DNA of 64,000 nucleotides from NCBI GenBank assembly GCA_027486555.1, contig JAIXOX010000013.1, forward strand, positions 44,330 through 108,329, given 5' to 3'. The notes under the pieces are model-generated. The model was not told the DNA's origin. It did not search any database and worked only from the letters and a program-made list of their open reading frames with translations. Positions 34,157-37,212 of the stretch are shown here, piece by piece (within the stretch, counting starts at the first letter, position 1; the number at the start of each line of letters is the position of its first letter). The translations under genes were made by a program, and so were the position numbers. The stretch comes from Comamonadaceae bacterium (GTDB taxonomy: Bacteria; Pseudomonadota; Gammaproteobacteria; Burkholderiales; Burkholderiaceae_C).

Positions 34157-35209
34157 ATGAACTTGGAGAAAAACGTCCCTTTGCAGCCCTACAACACCTT
34201 TGGCATCGCAGCCAAGGCGTTGGCGATGGTGCGTGTGCGCTCCGAAGCCGACCTGCTGGACGTGCTGGCCGATCCCGCTTTGGCCACTTTGCCCCGTCAA
34301 GTGCTGGGCGGCGGCAGCAACATTGTGCTCACTGGCGACGTCAAGGCGCTGGTGCTCAAGATGGAGGTGCCTGGCATTCGCTTGTCGGTTGAGACCGACA
34401 AGCACTGGGTGATCGAAGCAGGAGCGGGCGTCGACTGGCATGCGCTGGTGGCTTGGACCCTGGACAACCATTACCCGGGTCTTGAGAACATGGCCCTGAT
34501 TCCCGGCACGGTGGGCGCATCGCCCGTGCAAAACATCGGGGCTTATGGGGTGGAGTTGCAAGACCGCTTTGAGTCTTTGGACGCCATGGACCTGTTCACC
34601 GGCGAGCTGTTCAGCCTGAATGCCGCGCAGTGCGGTTTCAGCTACCGCGACTCGGTGTTCAAGCACGCATCGGGCGGACCCGAAGGCTTGGGCCTAGCGG
34701 GCCGTGCGGTCATCCTCAGGGTGCGCTTTGCGCTGCCCAAACGCTGGAAGCCCGAGCTGGGTTATCTGGACTTGGAGCGCAAGATGGCCGAGACTGGCAT
34801 CCATAACCCCGATGCACGGCAGATTTTTGACTGGGTGGTGGCCATTCGCCGCGCCAAACTGCCCGACCCGGCGGTGATCGGCAATGCGGGAAGCTTCTTC
34901 AAGAACCCGACGGTCACCCCCGAGCAATGCGCCGACATCATCGCCCGTGACCCGAAAGTGGTGCACTATCCCATGCCCGACGGCAGCATCAAGCTGGCTG
35001 CGGGCTGGCTGATCGACGCATGTGGTTGGAAAGGCAAGACCGTCGGCCACGCCGGGGTTTACGAAAAGCAGGCGCTGGTGCTGGTCAACCGCGGCGGACG
35101 CGAGAACCCCTGCACAGGTGGTGAGGTGATGACGCTGGCCAAGGCCATTCAGACCAGTGTGTACGAGCGGTTTGGGATTCGGCTGGAACCTGAGCCTGTG
35201 GTTATTTGA
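34157..35209 (+). CDS. murB: UDP-N-acetylmuramate dehydrogenase
   Basis: [55 protein letters not shown]. Confidence 0.97.
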
Positions 35210-35234: not shown

Positions 35235-35319
35235 GCACCGGGATGGGGCCTGAGCGGTCGGCCTCATAACTCGCTTCGCTCGCCAAATCGGCAGATCCGC
35301 TCAGGCCCCAACCCGGTGC
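35235..35319. repeat. 85-bp hairpin element 1: 23-nt inverted-repeat arms (1 mismatch), 39-nt loop with invariant 32-nt core (reverse orientation)
   Basis: Arms GCACCGGGATGGGGCCTGAGCGG (35235-35257) and CCGCTCAGGCCCCAACCCGGTGC (35297-35319); loop holds the reverse complement of GCCGATTTGGCGAGCGAAGCGAGTTATGAGGC. Confidence 0.95.
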
Positions 35320-35375
35320 TGCGTTGCCAAAGACCCCCAAAGACCTCAATACCCGCTTGTGTTTCAACGGACGTA

Positions 35376-35460
35376 GCCTTGGTGAGGGTGCCTGTCGGAC
35401 CCGCCGATTTGGCGAGCGAAGCGAGTTATGAGGCGGGCCGGCAGGCACCCTCACCAAGGC
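35376..35460. repeat. 85-bp hairpin element 2: different 23-nt arms (1 mismatch), same 39-nt loop length and same 32-nt core (forward)
   Basis: Arms GCCTTGGTGAGGGTGCCTGTCGG (35376-35398) and CCGGCAGGCACCCTCACCAAGGC (35438-35460); core GCCGATTTGGCGAGCGAAGCGAGTTATGAGGC (35403-35434). Confidence 0.95.
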
Positions 35461-35490: not shown

Positions 35491-35512
35491 AAAAAACGGC
35501 CCGAAGGCCGTT
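35491..35512 (-). terminator. Rho-independent terminator of argG
   Basis: Minus strand CGGCCTTCGGGCCG followed by TTTTTT. Confidence 0.85.

Positions 35513-35534: not shown

Positions 35535-37212
<1,678 letters not shown>

Follow-up and report, generated by a model that had tools for sequence, protein, structure and literature searches.

The attC site of integrons is an imperfect hairpin that is recognised as one strand, and its structure is conserved more than its sequence. The palindromic repeats closest to the elements described here are of two kinds. The GTAG and CGTC REPs have stems of 5–13 bp with a family-specific sequence and loops of 2–20 nt (Di Nocera 2013, PMC3733652). The Rickettsia palindromic elements (RPE) and the Wolbachia palindromic elements share with the hairpins of this study a palindromic structure and in-frame insertion into protein-coding genes, and two of them, RPE-4 and RPE-6, are CGTC REPs (PMC3733652). 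A further comparison comes from DNA chemistry, where GNA loops with at least two G-C pairs form extraordinarily stable mini-hairpins; GCGAAGC melts at 78 °C (PMC4686876).

The window analysed here is a stretch of 64,000 nucleotides from a Comamonadaceae bacterium (contig JAIXOX010000013.1). It contains two hairpin elements of 85 bp each (35235–35319 and 35376–35460), 56 bp apart and in opposite orientation, between the convergent genes murB (34157–35209, + strand) and argG (35535–36902, − strand, start codon uncertain), both assigned by Pfam. Size, spacing, orientation and gene context had already been described in a sequence-only reading of the window and are all confirmed. Both elements have a type A loop, and the covariance model R1 scores them at 93.7 bits (element 1, core strand −) and 97.9 bits (element 2, core strand +). 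The 32-nt core that they were said to share after reverse complementing is present in two copies without mismatch (35261–35292, − strand, and 35403–35434, + strand) and in none of 100 shuffles. The arms differ between the elements and each is complementary to its own partner, again as first described. The arm length of 23 nt with a single mismatch is correct for element 1 (35235–35257, the 3′ arm on the core strand, and 35297–35319, the 5′ arm) but not for element 2, whose left and right arms (35376–35401 and 35435–35460) are 26 nt long and 92% complementary. In place of 23-nt arms and a 39-nt interior, the loci anchored on the core share a 22-bp outer stem and a 6-bp inner stem, separated by a small internal loop, and a terminal loop of 25–26 nt. 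In the window the near-invariant loop has 26 nt, at 35264–35289 on the − strand in element 1 (GATTTGGCGAGCGAAGCGAGTTATGA) and at 35406–35431 on the + strand in element 2, and it includes a GCGAAGC cap (35273–35279, −, and 35416–35422, +) with the sequence of a GNA mini-hairpin (PMC4686876). Folded as single-stranded DNA, both elements are more stable than all 200 shuffles (z −6.7 to −10.1). The core strands point outward from the 56-bp spacer (35320–35375) and are antisense to murB and argG. No plasmid or phage copies of the pair were found. In other species (L078, L092, L086, L050) additional genes sit in the spacer; they encode a 193-aa lipoprotein-like protein with no Pfam match and, as named by eye, an XRE-like regulator together with a lipoprotein-like protein, and a thioesterase-like protein.

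Both hairpins belong to a family of palindromic repeats dispersed in Limnohabitans and in related genera within its GTDB family. The 14-mer GCGAGCGAAGCGAG has five copies in the host genome and is present in 20 of 36 further genomes from the genus; it also occurs in four genomes outside the genus, and those of their loci that were read have no paired arms. Covariance-model searches yielded matches in 65 of 91 Limnohabitans genomes and, with laxer filters, 8 copies in the host genome and 7–27 in six other genomes examined. The model built on the type-B set (see below) matched 25 of 300 genomes sampled from the GTDB family, belonging to 14 of 141 genera. At E 1e-5 it had no match in the 368 other genomes of a class-wide sample, a few of which are from the same family, indicating that it does not fire on just any hairpin, and the type-B loop with up to 2 mismatches was absent from 198 other genomes of the order. 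The named records place the host group in Limnohabitans; a small number of MAGs bear the labels Rhodoferax, Ramlibacter or unclassified Comamonadaceae. One record titled Akkermansia muciniphila (L153) contains Limnohabitans-type DNA and is probably a mislabelled MAG.

We collected 154 distinct copies by the exact core, a procedure that biases the apparent loop conservation upward and that the covariance-model searches partly correct. These copies fall into about ten orthologous loci and a number of singletons. Identified by their flanking genes, some of which were named by eye, the loci include murB-argG (a pair), valS (the valine tRNA synthetase gene), a site beside fabI, the interval between the divergent genes coaBC and pyrG, mutL and the following gene (a pair), the region before pyrC, and genes that encode proteins of the DUF3025, YgiQ-type radical SAM and MmeI-type methylase kinds. 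Orthologues of most loci are found throughout the genus, a sign of old residence rather than active movement. The number of loci also leads us to reject a merely local duplication. The sequence-only reading had named beforehand the findings that would speak against a family, namely a core absent elsewhere, other copies with unpaired arms, or a match to a catalogued repeat, and none of these was encountered.

The loops of the family are 22–27 nt long and nearly invariant within each of a few types. Their form is GATTT–mini-hairpin–YATGA, usually with a GCGNAGC cap. Among 210 hairpins from several genera, found with a search pattern that itself fixed the loop ends, GATTT or GATGT is followed by a short self-complementary or GCGNAGC centre and then by YATGA or TCTGA; the cap is GCGAAGC in 171, GCGCAGC in 21 and GCGTAGC in 1. 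Many of the weaker covariance-model matches keep this architecture but carry a different near-invariant loop, chiefly GATGTGGCAAAGCGAAGCGCCTCTGA (type B), and there are several rarer loops. An alignment mixing all loop types misplaced type D and was dropped. In one genome (G006) the type D hairpins at L191, L198, L205 and L212 lie within inverted arms of GGGGTCAGATCAACATTAATT, and the palindromy of these arms extends into the locus-specific flanks. The d(GCGNAGC) mini-hairpins have the same sequence as most unit caps, with N = A, C or T, but they are synthetic oligonucleotides or parts of aptamers, whereas the hairpins here form a repeat family (PMC4686876). The GNA cap may also form inside the full element.

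Almost every position of the stem, which is about 28–29 bp long, varies with compensation, and most positions have three or four Watson-Crick pair types. In 36 diverse type A copies double changes were found at 27 of 28 pairs, with 333 double-changed cells compared to 111 in shuffles. The corresponding covariation score is 0.791 compared to 0.194 in shuffles, and none of 500 shuffles reached the observed value. In the type-B set (n = 20, comprising 17 type B copies and 3 with a close variant loop) 94.8% of the cells are paired and the score is 0.978 compared to 0.207, again with none of 500 shuffles reaching it. Pairing in 40 type-B copies is at least 0.8 almost throughout as far as position 27 (0.57 at position 6), 0.65 at position 29 and 0.07 at position 30. 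The proposal of a family of structured DNA in which core and geometry are fixed and the paired stem varies is strongly supported.

The non-canonical pairs are distributed asymmetrically between the strands. Read on the core strand, with the valS and pyrC loci left out, G·T occurs at 68 pair positions and A·C at 30 (p = 1.6e-4, a rough guide only, as the sequences are related). G·T exceeds A·C in all 8 well-sampled loci, and type B shows 49 G·T compared to 16 A·C cells. Single transitions from Watson-Crick pairs yield G·T and A·C equally often, and the loop-carrying (core) strand therefore appears to be the structured strand. In the window, the outward direction of the core strands, antisense to murB and argG, suggests that the structure forms in single-stranded DNA or in a transcript of its own and not in the host mRNA. 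Where flank identity exceeds 0.9, compensated double changes amount to 0.57 of single changes; the very closest pairs show predominantly single changes, with double changes arising as divergence grows. This pattern fits stepwise compensation, and stems may also be renewed by templated block copying. The left and right arms of some units (L028, L080, L019, L099) do not match each other but resemble those found in other copies, a pattern that recombination at the common loop would produce.

Some copies are located within genes. The empty site of valS is GWPEKTPDYDLY, and the gene without the element reads GWPEKTPDYDLYLPSS. Filled genes have about 30 extra codons between GW and DYDLY, with the loop encoding D[LIMF]ASEAS and Asn-rich linkers often present, and all 31 filled genes that were checked keep an open reading frame. 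The arms vary among lineages, and the variable Asn-rich linkers blur the ends of the element. An inverted pair is present in frame in valS at L072 and L143 (both labelled Rhodoferax) and at L061 (uncultured), and three further genera have a unit at the same place, which can be explained by a single old insertion with later losses or by a hotspot. An MmeI-type methylase gene of another genus contains two in-frame units in opposite orientation, 1.3 kb apart, while its Aromatoleum homologue is without either. In-frame copies in coding sequences occur in both orientations. A gene with a sub-cutoff MmeI_TRD match (L103) also has an in-frame copy; two similar hairpins are found there, whose loops, type A and GATTTCTGGGCCTTTGACAGTATGA, have equal length. 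This duplicated hairpin with different loops in one gene raised the idea that loops are inserted into pre-existing hairpins, which we rejected because the valS empty site has no arms. The loop-templated inverted duplication considered in the sequence-only reading is not supported at valS, where the site without the element carries neither arm, and the closest orthologues show single changes before compensated ones, which looks stepwise.

Of 27 close pairs, 23 are inverted, the arrangement that also predominates in GTAG and CGTC REPs, and 20 have their core strands outward. The search for a co-occurring transposase gave a loose association with Y1_Tnp genes, which are present in all 25 hairpin-bearing genomes of the GTDB family compared with 199 of 275 others (p = 4.7e-4). 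By genus the difference is marginal (14 of 14 compared with 102 of 127, p = 0.056), and both p values ignore shared ancestry. A Y1_Tnp gene, mostly of ~240 aa, is found in 88 of 91 Limnohabitans genomes, with or without type A/B hairpins found, and genes this common cannot identify the enzyme by association. None of 30 Y1_Tnp loci examined carries family hairpins, whereas GTAG REPs flank a RAYT gene; the few inverted repeats there are of the GGGGTCAGATC kind, which lies near some copies of the gene (records L259–L286). No transposase gene flanked by family hairpins was found, and Y1_Tnp/RAYT was rejected as the dedicated enzyme.

These results lead us to infer that the elements are of a REP/RPE-like kind, were once mobile and act as hairpins of single-stranded DNA. 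The unit would act as a folded core strand, in which a stem of about 28–29 bp, free in sequence and set in length, presents the near-invariant loop of 22–27 nt. A DNA-acting recombinase or transposase, possibly a single-strand enzyme of the Y1/RAYT kind, would recognise the unit by its loop, and the stem would only supply a hairpin of set length. Units would have spread by transposition, inserting into intergenic DNA or, in frame, into tolerant protein loops, often as inverted pairs whose core strands face outward, and would then have persisted for long while the stem drifted with compensation. We consider this sequence of events, from a dispersed family folded as a single strand to insertion and compensated drift, to be on balance probable. 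It agrees with the earlier suggestion of a single-strand hairpin substrate, for which the G·T/A·C asymmetry and the GNA cap speak but for which no recombinase was identified. The long upkeep of structure and loop could equally be explained by a cellular function. It is also conceivable, but in our estimate unlikely, that the mobile element is defined by its loop alone, with some unknown ssDNA recombinase reading the GNA-capped loop on an arbitrary stem of fixed length and inserting it in frame.

The most serious competitor to a DNA element of this kind, which we regard as a possible although not a likely one, is a functional structured RNA or mRNA element under selection, such as an attenuator, a processing site or a small RNA, with the loop as a binding site for protein or RNA. 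RNA tolerates G·U pairs too. The strong covariation, the G·U-type intermediates and the stepwise change are compatible with such an element, as are the near-invariant loop and the position of some intergenic copies near 3′ ends. This explanation has difficulty with the window core strands, which are antisense to the adjacent convergent genes, with the copies between the divergent coaBC and pyrG, and with in-frame coding copies in both orientations; moreover, no promoter-like site was found in the window pair and no Rfam family reached threshold. A role as bidirectional transcription terminators for convergent genes would suit the very stable stems of the pair between murB and argG, but it seems very improbable, as an intrinsic terminator is a GC-rich hairpin followed by a T run and no such run follows either window element, the in-frame copies in valS would, as terminators, shut off an essential gene, and one copy lies between divergent genes. 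The gap between argG and element 2 already has a terminator-like hairpin with a T run, outside the element (35495–35512, − strand); a scan restricted to loops of 3–8 nt found 1 site compared to 0.9 expected in shuffles, and this assignment is therefore based mainly on its position.

The palindromy could also be a neutral by-product of arm-to-arm copying through template switching at the hairpin, which would make or renew the stems and leave only the loop conserved. The ratio of double to single changes at flank identity above 0.9, with half of the double changes being transversions, and the type D palindromy that continues into locus-specific flanks in G006 are in line with such copying. We nevertheless find it a rather doubtful explanation, because the closest pairs have mostly single changes, the G·T to A·C asymmetry is unexpected from strand-symmetric correction, and neither arm is present in the valS empty site. 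A DNA-level host function without mobility, for example as a binding site for a nucleoid protein or gyrase, would account for orthologous, long-lived loci across the genus and for inverted pairs resembling BIMEs. The low copy number (from 7 to 27 in the genomes counted), the many genomes of the genus without matches and the copies inside coding sequences make it slightly more doubtful still.

Among described systems, the formerly mobile elements that we favour differ from integron attC sites in the location of the conserved sequence: attC has conserved R boxes at the base of the stem, whereas here it is the loop that is conserved. By inspection, the stem base has no R″/R′ boxes (RYYYAAC/GTTRRRY) and shows AGC...GC instead. 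No Rfam family matches above its gathering score, and the sub-threshold matches are mostly miRNA hairpins. The exact loop sequences were absent from the literature searched, an open-access subset in which absence is not proof of novelty. The family is apparently undescribed, in keeping with the initial impression that it belongs to no repeat class that could be named with confidence.

The hairpins behave most like REP and RPE elements, yet they lack some defining features of the REP families tested. They share with GTAG and CGTC REPs their dispersal as palindromes, often in inverted dimers (REPs include mixed dimers), the presence of some copies in frame in genes, tRNA synthetases included, and G·T pairs in the stem; the CGTC REPs are, moreover, a group with no dedicated transposase (PMC3733652). 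Both stem and loop exceed the REP size ranges. GTAG REPs carry an unpaired GTAG (or GYAG) tag at one end of the stem. In the hairpins, a GTAG/GYAG-like tag at positions −39 to −36 (G in 84, C/T in 122, A in 110 and G in 118 of 154 copies) is strong at some loci, among them murB-argG, valS and coaBC-pyrG, and absent at others, and its last G is itself paired. The CGTC tag, the 8–9 bp stem and the 4–5 nt loop of CGTC REPs are not found in the hairpins. A palindrome GATTGCCGCGCTTCGCTCGCAATGAC with an inverted copy (L226:200–264) resembles CGTC REPs more than the family. The RPE belong to a different bacterial class, and PMC3733652 describes no invariant loop on a free stem for them; the in-frame insertions in valS and the MmeI-type methylase, absent from homologues, correspond to those of the RPE. 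Known REP families conserve the stem, and the hairpins reverse this arrangement, with very strong, sequence-free compensation at fixed length across a genus. They offer a clean natural experiment on the requirements of an enzyme that recognises hairpins and are a candidate for a natural use of GNA DNA mini-hairpins. They also form a betaproteobacterial counterpart to the Rickettsia palindromic elements that is testable in cultivable freshwater bacteria.
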